A stretch of DNA of 64,000 nt. It comes from Lachnospiraceae bacterium MC2017. GTDB taxonomy: Bacteria; Bacillota; Clostridia; Lachnospirales; Lachnospiraceae. Below the pieces are notes generated by a model, which saw only the letters and a list, made by a program, of their open reading frames with translations, had not been told where the DNA came from and did no database searches. The stretch is taken from contig KL370803.1 in the NCBI GenBank assembly GCA_000701625.1, forward strand, positions 62,001-126,000, given 5' to 3'. Shown here piece after piece: positions 58,635 to 63,210 of the stretch (its first letter is position 1; every line of letters begins with the position of its first letter). The position numbers and the translations under genes are program-made.

Positions 58635-58672
58635 CCCGCGCTTGCGCGGAGAATTCGATAAAGTCGGATTCT
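58635..58672 (-). repeat. Dispersed repeat AGAATC...GCGCAAG, copy 2
   Basis: Minus-strand reading AGAATCCGACTTTATCGAAT then TCTCCGCGCAAGCGCGG; compare 34429-34463. It precedes the extended -10 of the rtcB leader. Confidence 0.65.
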
Positions 58673-58673
58673 G

Positions 58674-58682
58674 TGTTATAAT
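58674..58682 (+). promoter_or_regulatory. Extended -10 promoter before the rtcB leader
   Basis: TGTTATAAT, 100 bases before the leader peptide ORF. A -35 box near 58654 (TTCGAT) is weak. A dispersed repeat copy (58635-58672) lies immediately upstream. Confidence 0.5.
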
Positions 58683-58781
58683 CAGATGTATCCTATCGTA
58701 AACTGCAGATTTATCTGACGTTTATAATAGCTACAACAAATCAATTCAGTGTGCTCATGATGAGCAGAAAGGAGGACGATC

Positions 58782-58859
58782 ATGAAACATATGACGACCA
58801 CAAAAAACAGTAACTTAACAAACTACAGAGGCATGATTGTCCGCTATCGATTTTCCTGA
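58782..58859 (+). CDS. Putative 25-residue leader peptide
   Basis: ATG at 58782 with a very strong AAAGGAGG site 6 bases upstream, 25 codons, stop TGA at 58857. The product MKHMTTTKNSNLTNYRG... has no known domain and ends RYRFS. It precedes two overlapping hairpins and rtcB, the layout of a translation-coupled attenuator. It may alternatively be a small functional protein, or not translated. Confidence 0.55.
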   Translation: MKHMTTTKNSNLTNYRGMIVRYRFS

Positions 58860-58892
58860 TCATTCTATCAGATTTTTCATGGATAATAGATA

Positions 58893-58937
58893 AGGCTGGA
58901 CAGGTATAAGCCTCTGGGGATTTTTAGAGGTGTTTTT
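58893..58937 (+). promoter_or_regulatory. Alternative hairpins (attenuator-like) before rtcB
   Basis: AGGCT (58893-58897) can pair with AGCCT (58909-58913). CCTCT (58911-58915) can pair with AGAGG (58926-58930), followed by TGTTTTT. Both use CCT at 58911-58913, so only one forms at a time; the second resembles a weak terminator strengthened by G-U pairs. Confidence 0.45.
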
Positions 58938-58976
58938 AACTCAAAAAGAGTGGGACACTTCGACGGAGGTTTTATT

Positions 58977-60110
58977 TTGATACCGGTAAAAGGTAAATAT
59001 ACAGAAGCATATATTATGTGCGATCAGTCTCTTGCAGGAGCTGACATTGACCAATACGCGATCGCCCAGATACAGATGATCTGCGACAACAAGGCATCTG
59101 AAGGCGCAATTATCAGAGTCATGCCCGATGTTCATCCGGGTAAAGTAGGTCCTATCGGACTTACAATGACGATCACAGACACTATCCTTCCTTCACTTGT
59201 TGGTATTGATATTGGCTGCGGAATGTATGCTGTGAAGATCGGAAAGTTCCGAAACGACTATCAGAAGCTTGATACAGTAATCAGAGACAACGTTCCAGTG
59301 GGATTCAAGATCAGAAGTAAAGTGCACAGAGATGCGGAATTTGATCTTACGAGACTTGCCTGCTGCAAGCACATCCGCAGTGATAAGGCTCTCCTTAGCA
59401 TTGGCACACTTGGCGGCGGTAATCATTTCATAGAGCTTGATCAGGATGATAATAAGGATGTCTACATGATAATACACAGCGGCAGCCGACATCTCGGTAA
59501 GGAAGTCGCTGAGTACTATATGGAAGCAGGACAGAGGGAGCTCAAGGATAAAGGGATCACGGATGTACCCTATGAGATGACATATCTTTCCGGAAGGCTT
59601 ATGGAGGATTATCTTCACGACCTTGAAGTTGTGCAGGAGTATGCTGAGTTAAACCGCAGGGTTATAGCATCTGAAATCCTTAAGGGTATGAAATGGAAGG
59701 AAAAAGAAACTGTTTCTTGCATTCATAACTATGTTGATTTTTCAGGAAATCTTCCCCTTCTCAGAAAGGGTGCTATTTCTGCAAAGAAAGATGAGGATGT
59801 GATCATACCCATTAACATGAAGGATGGGGTGATCCTTGGTAAAGGACTCGGAAACAAGGATTGGAACGATTCAGCTCCTCACGGCAGTGGAAGGATCGCA
59901 TCAAGAGATAATGTGAGAAATAACCATACTGTGTCTGAATTTAAGTCAGAAATGAAGGGCGTTTATACAACCTGCATAGGTGCAGATACACTTGACGAAG
60001 CTCCTTTTGCTTACAGAAGAATAGATTATATCAAAGAGGCAGTAAGGGACACAGTAGAAATGAATAAGCAATTAAAGCCTCTCTACAACTATAAGGGAGG
60101 TAATAAATGA
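58977..60110 (+). CDS. rtcB: RNA-splicing ligase RtcB family protein
   Basis: 377 residues from the TTG at 58977, 7 bases after CGGAGG; a GTG at 58950 lies before that site. Start VKGKYTEAYIM is usual for the short RtcB form. Metal and GTP-site motifs: MPDVHPGKVGPIG, GIDIGCGMYA (Cys and Asp of the Mn site), GGGNHFIELDQD, IHSGSRHLG and, near the end, HGSGRIASR with the His that is guanylylated in this family. Joins RNA 3'-phosphate or 2',3'-cyclic phosphate to 5'-OH. Pairing with prfH (4-base overlap) marks it as the RtcB2 type, which is linked by published work to repair of cleaved 16S rRNA. Confidence 0.93.
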   Translation: MIPVKGKYTEAYIMCDQSLAGADIDQYAIAQIQMICDNKASEGAIIRVMPDVHPGKVGPIGLTMTITDTILPSLVGIDIGCGMYAVKIGKFRNDYQKLDTVIRDNVPVGFKIRSKVHRDAEFDLTRLACCKHIRSDKALLSIGTLGGGNHFIELDQDDNKDVYMIIHSGSRHLGKEVAEYYMEAGQRELKDKGITDVPYEMTYLSGRLMEDYLHDLEVVQEYAELNRRVIASEILKGMKWKEKETVSCIHNYVDFSGNLPLLRKGAISAKKDEDVIIPINMKDGVILGKGLGNKDWNDSAPHGSGRIASRDNVRNNHTVSEFKSEMKGVYTTCIGADTLDEAPFAYRRIDYIKEAVRDTVEMNKQLKPLYNYKGGNK

Positions 60111-60721
60111 TAATACAGCTTAGTTCAGGTATGGGACCTGTAGAATGCAGAGTTGCTGTGGGCGGTATATGCAGGAGTCTTCTTGATGAATTTCCGGAAC
60201 TTGAGGTGGTAACAGGTACAAAAGGTGAAGTTGAGGGCTCTTTTTCATCAGTGATATTGTCATCGGATAGTGATCTTTCAGAGCTTGAGGGTACTATGGA
60301 ATGGATATGTAAGAGCAGCTACCGACCGGGACACAAGAGAAAGAACTGGTTCATTGATGTCAGCATCATTCCTGATGCTGCTCAGGTGGATGAAAAGATA
60401 AAGGAAAGTGACCTAAAAATTGAGTCGTTTCATTCAGGGGGGCCCGGCGGACAGAATGTAAATAAAGTCGAAACAGGAATCCGCATTATTCATCTCCCTA
60501 CCGGAATAACAGTTACTTCTACGCGGGAAAGAAGTCAATTTATGAATAAGCAGGACGCGCTTAAGAAACTCTCTGCGATCCTGAAACAAACAAATTCTGC
60601 CGGAAGAGACCGTCAGAAGAATGAGGCATGGAGCAGACACGCACAGATAACAAGAGGAAATCCGATAAGGATCTATGAAGGAAAGAATTTTAAGCTTACC
60701 TTTCGAAGGGAAATAAAGTAA
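60107..60721 (+). CDS. prfH: Peptide chain release factor homologue PrfH
   Basis: 204 residues. The GGQ catalytic loop SGGPGGQNVNKVETGIRI is present, and the downstream TSTRERSQFMNKQDAL is the usual RF pattern, but the codon-recognition domain of RF1/RF2 is missing, as in PrfH/ArfB-like proteins. Expected to release peptides on ribosomes damaged at the decoding centre so the paired RtcB can reseal the rRNA. Overlaps rtcB in an ATGA and ends in a terminator. Confidence 0.93.
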   Translation: MIIQLSSGMGPVECRVAVGGICRSLLDEFPELEVVTGTKGEVEGSFSSVILSSDSDLSELEGTMEWICKSSYRPGHKRKNWFIDVSIIPDAAQVDEKIKESDLKIESFHSGGPGGQNVNKVETGIRIIHLPTGITVTSTRERSQFMNKQDALKKLSAILKQTNSAGRDRQKNEAWSRHAQITRGNPIRIYEGKNFKLTFRREIK

Positions 60722-60742
60722 ATAAAATAGGATGAACTATAG

Positions 60743-60775
60743 CGGGAATGACAGATGATGTCATTCCCGTTTGGT
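60743..60775 (+). terminator. Terminator after prfH (GGGAATGACA family, copy 1)
   Basis: CGGGAATGACA (60743-60753), loop GATGA, TGTCATTCCCG (60759-60769), then TTTGG. First of three near-identical hairpins in 2.5 kb. Confidence 0.9.
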
Positions 60776-61685: not shown

Positions 61686-61721
61686 GTGGCAGCTCAGGAA
61701 AACAGAACACATAGATTTCAG

Positions 61722-61754
61722 CGGGAATGACAGATTATGTCATTCCCGTTTTTG
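61722..61754 (+). terminator. Terminator (GGGAATGACA family, copy 2)
   Basis: CGGGAATGACA (61722-61732), loop GATTA, TGTCATTCCCG (61738-61748), then TTTTT. Preceded by ACATAGATTT, shared with copy 3. Confidence 0.92.
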
Positions 61755-63152: not shown

Positions 63153-63175
63153 TAAATAGAATACATAGATTTTCG

Positions 63176-63210
63176 CGGGAATGACAGATGATGTCATTCC
63201 CGTTTTCTGT
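63176..63210 (+). terminator. Terminator (GGGAATGACA family, copy 3)
   Basis: CGGGAATGACA (63176-63186), loop GATGA, TGTCATTCCCG (63192-63202), then TTTT. Stem identical to copies 1 and 2. Confidence 0.9.

Follow-up and report, generated by a model that had tools for sequence, protein, structure and literature searches.

How might a bacterium arrange that genes of a ribosome-repair type are expressed when its ribosomes can no longer decode? To our knowledge, the way in which cells sense cut ribosomes is largely open, and the question is raised by a locus of Lachnospiraceae bacterium MC2017 (contig KL370803.1), where, within the 64,000-nucleotide (nt) stretch analysed here (the window), the genes rtcB and prfH are separated from the preceding ferredoxin-type gene by a leader of about 290 nt, its start site being placed by a -10 element. 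An earlier note on this DNA had pointed to a 25-codon open reading frame (ORF) with a Shine-Dalgarno site (SD), overlapping hairpins with a T-run, a TTG-start rtcB and an overlapping prfH, and had suggested that ribosomes reading the ORF let the operon respond to failing translation; all of these parts are present in the sequence (Table 1). Comparison of related leaders and fold modelling indicate that the leader is probably a ribosome-mediated attenuator, switched on when a ribosome sits on the leader start codon without advancing. Below, L and G numbers are our handles for loci and genomes, and statements on published work refer to the accessible parts of the papers cited.

The note had proposed to fold the leader and to align it with those of relatives, and both analyses spoke for a structured RNA. 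In models of the minimum-free-energy type for short RNAs, on which all fold predictions here are based, the 291-nt leader had a z-score of -3.2, with none of 200 shuffled sequences folding as well; the z-score was -3.6 for positions 58820-58920 (0 of 200 shuffles) and -2.5 for 58820-58942 (2 of 200). The significant fold of 58820-58920 is due to a long pairing between CAGAGGCATGATTGTCC within the ORF (arm 2) and GGACAGGTATAAGCCTCTG downstream (arm 3), and, since the last seven bases of GGACAGGTATAAGCCTCTG are also the 5' side of the terminator, this antiterminator and the terminator exclude each other. A second pairing joins the leader SD region GGACGATCAT (arm 1) to ATGATTGTCC (58833-58842) and, as it involves the same stretch of the ORF, competes with the first. 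Alternative folds that are coupled to the ORF and conserved are supported, as had been proposed, but the terminator's main competitor is not the AGGCT/AGCCT hairpin; the local short hairpins alone (z-scores of +0.36 and +0.53) were no better than shuffles, and that hairpin was rejected as the main antiterminator in favour of the long ORF pairing, which had been overlooked together with the pairing that masks the leader SD.

Table 1. Features of the leader and of the operon behind it (positions are those of the window)
Feature	Position	Strand	Basis or remark
Promoter-like site, weak -35 and extended -10 TGTTATAAT	58655..58682	+	10/12 consensus matches, with TG
Small palindrome TGCTCATGATGAGCA, just 5' of leader SD	58752..58766	+	by eye
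SD of leader ORF, AAAGGAGG	58768..58775	+	sequence
Arm 1, SD/start region GGACGATCAT	58774..58783	+	10/10 pairing with 58833-58842; covariation
Leader ORF, 25 codons, ATG at 58782, MKHMTTTKNSNLTNYRGMIVRYRFS	58782..58859	+	ORF list, script
Arm 2, within leader ORF, CAGAGGCATGATTGTCC	58826..58842	+	3' part pairs with arm 1; whole pairs with arm 3
AGGCT/AGCCT hairpin	58893-58913	+	sequence
Arm 3 GGACAGGTATAAGCCTCTG	58898..58916	+	pairs with arm 2 (antiterminator); GCCTCTG also 5' side of terminator
Arms 3:4, intrinsic-terminator-like hairpin GCCTCTGGGGATTTTTAGAGGT (58910-58931), then GTTTTT	58910..58937	+	modest strength
SD of rtcB, GACGGAGG	58962..58969	+	sequence
rtcB, TTG start at 58977, RtcB RNA ligase family, not RtcB2 subfamily	58977..60110	+	profile matches
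prfH, peptide chain release factor H, overlaps rtcB	60107..60721	+	TIGR03072
Palindromic terminator-like repeat 3' of prfH, repeated 3' of next two genes	60742..60772	+	

The leader would work as follows. Without a ribosome, 1:2 would close first, taking the SD into a duplex with arm 2, arm 3 would go to arm 4, and the operon would be off. A healthy ribosome would move through, allowing 1:2 to shut behind it and, while crossing arm 2, also blocking 2:3, so that the operon would again stay off. A ribosome that has started and does not advance would occupy the SD and the initial codons, with arm 2 (from about nt 38) remaining accessible; arm 2 could then pair with arm 3, and transcription (or translation) of rtcB-prfH would continue. 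Ribosomes cut by colicin E3 were reported to initiate at about 75% of control, to form the dipeptide 15-fold more slowly and to be stopped completely at elongation (Lancaster et al., PMC2615495); as cut ribosomes reportedly start near-normally and fail at decoding, they would produce the start-parked state. The suggested tie between the operon and the behaviour of ribosomes on the leader is supported in its logic; from the fold modelling and this biochemistry we infer its direction, on when decoding fails, and the translation of the ORF, the signal and the kinetics of the switch are inferences too.

Relatives were collected by PrfH searches of 48 genomes of the genus, 397 of the family, 391 of the class (Clostridia) and 10 and 12 of two other genera, and of GTDB contigs, of which the best 80 were kept. 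The same-class prfH loci numbered 37 (10 from the genus, 17 from the family, 7 from the class, one from another genus and two from GTDB contigs), the nearest named ones being L032 and L033 (Lachnospiraceae); the genomes are partly fragmentary, and in four loci (L130, L131, L132, L135) the upstream end coincides with a contig end, which left 33. The earlier note had accepted a lack of conservation in relatives as a refutation, and a window-type leader was found in 25 of these 33 operons. In 23 of them, an SD and short ORF of the window type stand directly 5' of rtcB (L136 among them, without 1:2), and in two (G029, G099) a covariance model places the leader 5' of an operon of MoxR-AAA, DUF2201, rtcB and prfH genes, the model score of the two being strong for L169 (52.8 bits) and weak for L170 (27.1 bits). 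Seven further operons, with a distant RtcB (type II), have another leader ORF of 11-14 codons and, by eye, a terminator; three of the seven RtcB proteins were scanned, and all three meet both RtcB2 models. The terminator of the type II operons (L151, L152, L162, L165, L166, L167, L168) ends in ATCGTG or GTCGTG followed by a T-run. At first look, the prfH loci of G039 and G525 contain an internal stop. By script, a short ORF with an SD in front of it (8-45 codons, within 600 nt) turned up in 22 of 26 rtcB upstream regions compared with 8.75% of mononucleotide-shuffled regions; under a narrower rule (18-45 codons, 400 nt), such ORFs preceded 3 of 22 genes in the window, one of which may be rtcB itself, and 52 of 176 genes in the fetched loci, a set that includes the repair operons.

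The comparison defined four arms, namely the leader SD (arm 1), ORF nt about 41-70 (arm 2), a downstream arm (arm 3) and a terminator arm (arm 4), the last of which in a few relatives is apparently the SD of the next gene. Several columns of the leader SD are nearly invariant in an alignment of 23 leaders, and the arms co-vary, both in this alignment and in permutations of 20 leaders (near duplicates L138, L172 and L164 dropped). The mean 1:2 duplex energy was -15.4 kcal/mol, compared with -12.0 (standard deviation 0.55) when partners were redealt, and that of 2:3 was -25.0, compared with -19.2 (0.79); in neither case was the real value reached in 20000 deals (0/20000). In the MAFFT alignment of the 23 leaders, the covariation score of 1:2 was 0.356, versus 0.226 after shuffling (0 of 500) and no more than 0.162 with a slid partner; seven of the ten 1:2 pairs vary on both sides, yet 118 of 500 shuffles match that count.

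Synonymous recoding of 36 leaders (L138, L172, L164 and L196 dropped, as also in the nt-80 and masking sets below) shifted the mean 1:2 energy from -14.9 to -9.9 and the mean 2:3 energy from -24.1 to -18.5, and none of 200 replicate means reached the real ones; leader by leader, p 0.05 was reached in 20 of 36 for 1:2 and in 17 of 36 for 2:3. Judged from these comparisons, the leader arms are under selection as RNA, codon choice included, and not only for the peptide. A pattern for arm 2, which in a few leaders caught a neighbouring motif, matched 28 of the 36 leaders, in frame 0 in 22, in frame 2 in five and in frame 1 in one; the predominance of one frame speaks for translation, and the exceptions speak against a requirement for the peptide. 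These results bear on an attenuation specific for a peptide or drug, as in the erm, msr and bmrCD leaders, where an antibiotic and the nascent peptide would stall the ribosome and free the antiterminator. The combination of leader ORF and terminator is of the same general kind (PMC4191407, PMC10314930), and elongation inhibitors would be expected to trigger a window-type switch as well, as reported for PA5471.1 (PMC12057347). However, the leader peptides have no common arrest motif by eye, arm 2 is not confined to one reading frame, codon choice is selected for pairing and not for the peptide alone, and the genes behind the leader are of repair type, not drug pumps or methylases, which makes this explanation distinctly improbable.

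Conserved folds ahead of one functional gene set could also belong to a riboswitch or a protein-binding leader, e.g., one for autoregulation by RtcB or PrfH, with the ORF being incidental. Against this, the conserved letters belong to the SD, to the start codon and to the arms that complement each other, the loop being rich in A (0.48 over codons 2-13); behind the SD, a frame of 20-42 codons is open in the 23 leaders, which had been picked for it, and likewise in 17 that had not; and most length changes are in frame, as seen in the 22 of 28 arm 2 matches sharing one frame. The Rfam search gave no match with an E value under 0.9 for the leader of the window and no family at its gathering score in 18 loci, so a known Rfam element was dismissed for both. 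A riboswitch or protein-binding leader thus seems hardly probable.

A covariance model of the region from arm 1 to arm 2 (R1) was searched against 48 genomes of the genus, 397 of the family and 381 of the class. With a limit of E <= 1e-4, 17 places fell outside its training set (7 in the genus, 10 in the family and 0 in the class), and 12 of these stand directly 5' of rtcB or of MoxR-AAA/DUF2201 genes (in some cases partial). The rtcB genes marked by the model include ones that have no prfH. Two places have no such gene (G041:C1, and G009, with only a 16-residue MoxR-like start at E 0.055), two are at contig ends (G004) and one precedes an unrelated gene (G004). Arm 3 lies outside R1, and in the leaders found later the 2:3 pairing averaged -24.9 against -20.9 for redealt partners (1/20000, n = 17), or -25.0 against -20.8 (0/20000, n = 16) without one near copy (L196); this set of 17 contains the weak find L170 and not the second contig-end copy from G004 (G004:C38, L197). 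Weaker R1 matches in G127, G350, G224, G747, G534 and G627 (E 1e-4 to 1e-2), at genes without a match to rtcB, prfH, MoxR-AAA or DUF2201, were taken as chance, as was one in the window genome (G000:C4, E 0.024); other matches at E 1e-3 to 0.5 in genus and family were left aside, except for the training members G039 and G347. In L229, L230, L233 and L234, the leader stands 5' of genes for MoxR-AAA (AAA_5) and for DUF2201 proteins, and the fetched stretch showed no rtcB; families were scanned for L229 only.

The order of events was modelled with partial and masked RNAs. When the RNA ended at nt 80, 28 of 36 leaders were predicted to have the SD core paired to arm 2 (probability, P, above 0.5); in 25 synonymous replicates, this number averaged 12.8 and did not exceed 17. 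With the start region masked, in imitation of a parked ribosome, the mean P(2:3) was 0.57 instead of 0.26, with a rise in 25 of 36 leaders and a fall in none, and the leaders with P(3:downstream) above 0.5 fell from 12 to 1; with arm 2 masked, P(2:3) was 0 and P(3:downstream) exceeded 0.5 in 12 of 36. Under other settings, with 22 leaders (L164 dropped), P(2:3) was above 0.5 in 8 free, 13 start-masked and 0 arm-2-blocked leaders, and P(3:downstream) in 10, 6 and 16, respectively.

In its simplest form, the reading of the earlier note is that of a general sensor of missing translation, such as after loss of the anti-SD or in a shortage of initiation: an untranslated leader would fold 2:3 and turn the operon on. 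The equilibrium fold of the window leader without a ribosome indeed favours 2:3 (P 0.80), which is likewise dominant in seven others of the 22 (L138, L139, L142, L143, L150, L032, L136). However, 12 of the 36 unmasked leaders prefer arm 3 paired downstream, and 1:2 is conserved, co-varying and, in the 28 leaders just mentioned, predicted to form before arm 3 exists; it would therefore be without evident purpose if an empty leader meant "on". A sensor of missing translation is thus unlikely. The preferred reading, a switch thrown by a parked ribosome, has to pay for this with kinetics: as the unmasked window fold favours 2:3, an untranslated leader can be "off" only if 1:2 forms earlier and then persists kinetically.

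Two features expected of an attenuator are found: a short leader ORF with its own SD and, overlapping the ORF, an antiterminator fold and a terminator (or SD-masking) fold that exclude each other, the latter feature not cleanly in some leaders. At arms 3:4, the script listed terminator-like hairpins followed by a T-run for 20 of 39 leaders (hand-picked, with no shuffle control, and without L164), and by eye two more (L032, L150) have one. In the near-identical L138 and L139, arm 4 is the SD of rtcB, with a P of being paired of 0.20 in the start state and 0.99-1.00 in the passing state. By these models, about half of the leaders would act through a terminator, and a few seem to act by masking the SD of the next gene.

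Apart from the unmasked folds favouring 2:3 in the window and the seven other leaders, a number of observations weigh against a switch of this kind. The window terminator is weak (58880-58942 at -9.7 kcal/mol, no better than shuffles). The result of start-region masking is partly built in, because the mask takes away arm 1 as a competitor, and the effect of blocking arm 2 on P(3:downstream) differs between the two settings of mask and arm 3 (above 0.5 in 16 of 22 leaders, versus only 12 of 36 in the masking set). The permutation tests of 1:2 and 2:3 leave relatedness uncorrected. Two of the 25 leaders lack 1:2 or nearly so (L136, -6.3; L170, -2.1), and L129 and L235 have no 2:3 in the scripted windows; the failure of L129 is explained by its arm 3 lying nearer, and with a shifted window P is 0.73 in the start state. 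SD-masking states are separate in L193 and L195, but no recognised gene follows there and the start was guessed; they are unseparated in L137, L141, L133, L163 and L169 and partly so in L129. One of the 33 operons (G056) has prfH but no leader was found, the best model match (21.8 bits) being at the start of another gene; in the family search at E <= 0.01, R1 did not list G413 (L141), one of its training members; and its match at G004:C32:2714-2808 (L196, E 3.8e-5) precedes an unrelated 340-aa gene. Finally, older reports cited in PMC2615495 held that E3-treated ribosomes are unable to form initiation complexes. The 340-aa protein of L196 resembles, by eye, a protein in G001 C15 (L248 319-1341).

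PrfH of the window scores 174.7 bits with TIGR03072 (cut-off 166.65) and contains the GGQ motif, which we take to be a mark of PrfH, so its earlier identification holds. RtcB scores 197.6 with PF01139 (gathering score 27) and stays below the cut-offs of the NCBIfam models TIGR03073 (108.8 vs 271.8) and NF007153 (142.2 vs 407), presumably the models of RtcB2; the earlier assignment to RtcB2 has to be given up. RtcB2-PrfH was reported to guard E. coli against colicin E3 (PMC9223846), and by homology the window pair may protect likewise. PADLOC (E 1e-5) found no match for RtcB, PrfH, MoxR-AAA, DUF2201 and the ADP-ribosylglycohydrolase, and for these five proteins a defence-system label was discarded on that ground.

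A broader reading, offered tentatively and with slightly more doubt than confidence, is that leaders with the SD as arm 1 form a general sensor of broken ribosomes, which would tell decoding-damaged ribosomes from healthy and from absent ones and would serve interchangeable outputs in an rtcB/prfH/MoxR-AAA/DUF2201 regulon. A hint that it may reach beyond one class comes from a look-alike in Fulvivirga. Of the named rtcB-prfH loci from outside the Clostridia, 20 had 300 nt or more of upstream sequence (L034, L036-L054; L035 was too short). The script found no SD-preceded short ORF in 19 of them; in the twentieth, L037 (Fulvivirga sediminis), there is one, together with a terminator-like hairpin and a weak model match (25.7 bits), and the ORF can pair with the terminator arm (-20.5), with a weak 1:2 (-7.5). 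This possible Bacteroidota look-alike lies at L037 2299-2420, with a 17-codon SD-led ORF and the hairpin about 480 nt 5' of rtcB. PrfH relatives were also found in two plasmid records (E 1e-30) and seven phage records (E 1e-15), all of them below 60% identity. If the reading is true, the leader would be a cis-acting RNA reporting ribosomes that are initiation-competent and decoding-dead, and the MoxR-AAA/DUF2201 pair would be tied to the same response as rtcB and prfH; the leader model can serve as a search tool for further cases.

Around the operon, the gene 5' of the leader is of the 4Fe-4S ferredoxin type, with a napH model score under its cut-off. The extended -10 TGTTATAAT, with its hexamer ending at 58682, is a consensus match only, as nine such sites occur in the region against 8.8 expected. 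Short hairpins resembling the TGCTCATGATGAGCA palindrome were seen by eye in L129, L193 and L195. The unit after prfH is a gene of the ADP-ribosylglycohydrolase family (PF03747, 60843-61685), in the same order by eye in G001 (L247), and a second RtcB-like protein of 434 aa is encoded, by eye, about 5.5 kb 3' of prfH, outside the window (L246 8256-9560, G000). A nearly identical 28-nt palindrome with a T-run lies 3' of prfH and of the next two genes (60742-60769, 61721-61748, 63175-63202); its exact pattern occurs five times in the window genome (G000) and ten times in G001, clustered and in one direction, with 0 copies in the other 46 genus genomes searched. It resembles a terminator moving with an array of single-gene units, several of which belong, by eye, to one repeated family.

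Among known systems, trp-type attenuators have alternative 1:2, 2:3 and 3:4 pairings with a leader ORF, and the window-type leader shares this plan; unlike them, it has no regulatory run of codons for one amino acid that could be seen, its arm 1 is the SD and its arm 2 lies in the ORF. In ermC-type regulation, a ribosome stalled in the leader frees 2:3 and hence the SD of the next gene. In the models, L138 and L139 free a downstream SD in a similar manner, but no conserved arrest peptide was seen, the stall is expected at the start codon, and the family includes terminator versions. In the literature searched on rtcB/prfH leaders (with few subscription journals or bioRxiv preprints), only the Pseudomonas PA5471.1 work was found, and the accessible part of PMC2965389 mentions neither rtcB nor a release factor. 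Neither this literature nor Rfam yielded a description of such a leader family, of an SD that serves as arm 1 or of one leader common to rtcB, prfH, MoxR-AAA and DUF2201 genes. Ribosome-mediated attenuation in general is well known, and so is, from Pseudomonas, a leader peptide encoded ahead of prfH and an RtcB-like gene (PMC12057347). The rescue operon of E. coli has the pair of RtcB and PrfH in common with the window, whose RtcB fails the RtcB2 models, and the accessible account describes no leader for it (PMC9223846). The closest precedent is the PA5471.1 leader peptide of Pseudomonas aeruginosa, which precedes PA5471 (armZ, RtcB-like) and PA5470 (prfH) and for which an attenuation responding to stalled ribosomes has been proposed (PMC12057347); it comes from another phylum, its accessible description does not include an SD acting as arm 1, and, likened by description, the two leaders share a short ORF placed ahead of an RtcB-like gene and prfH.

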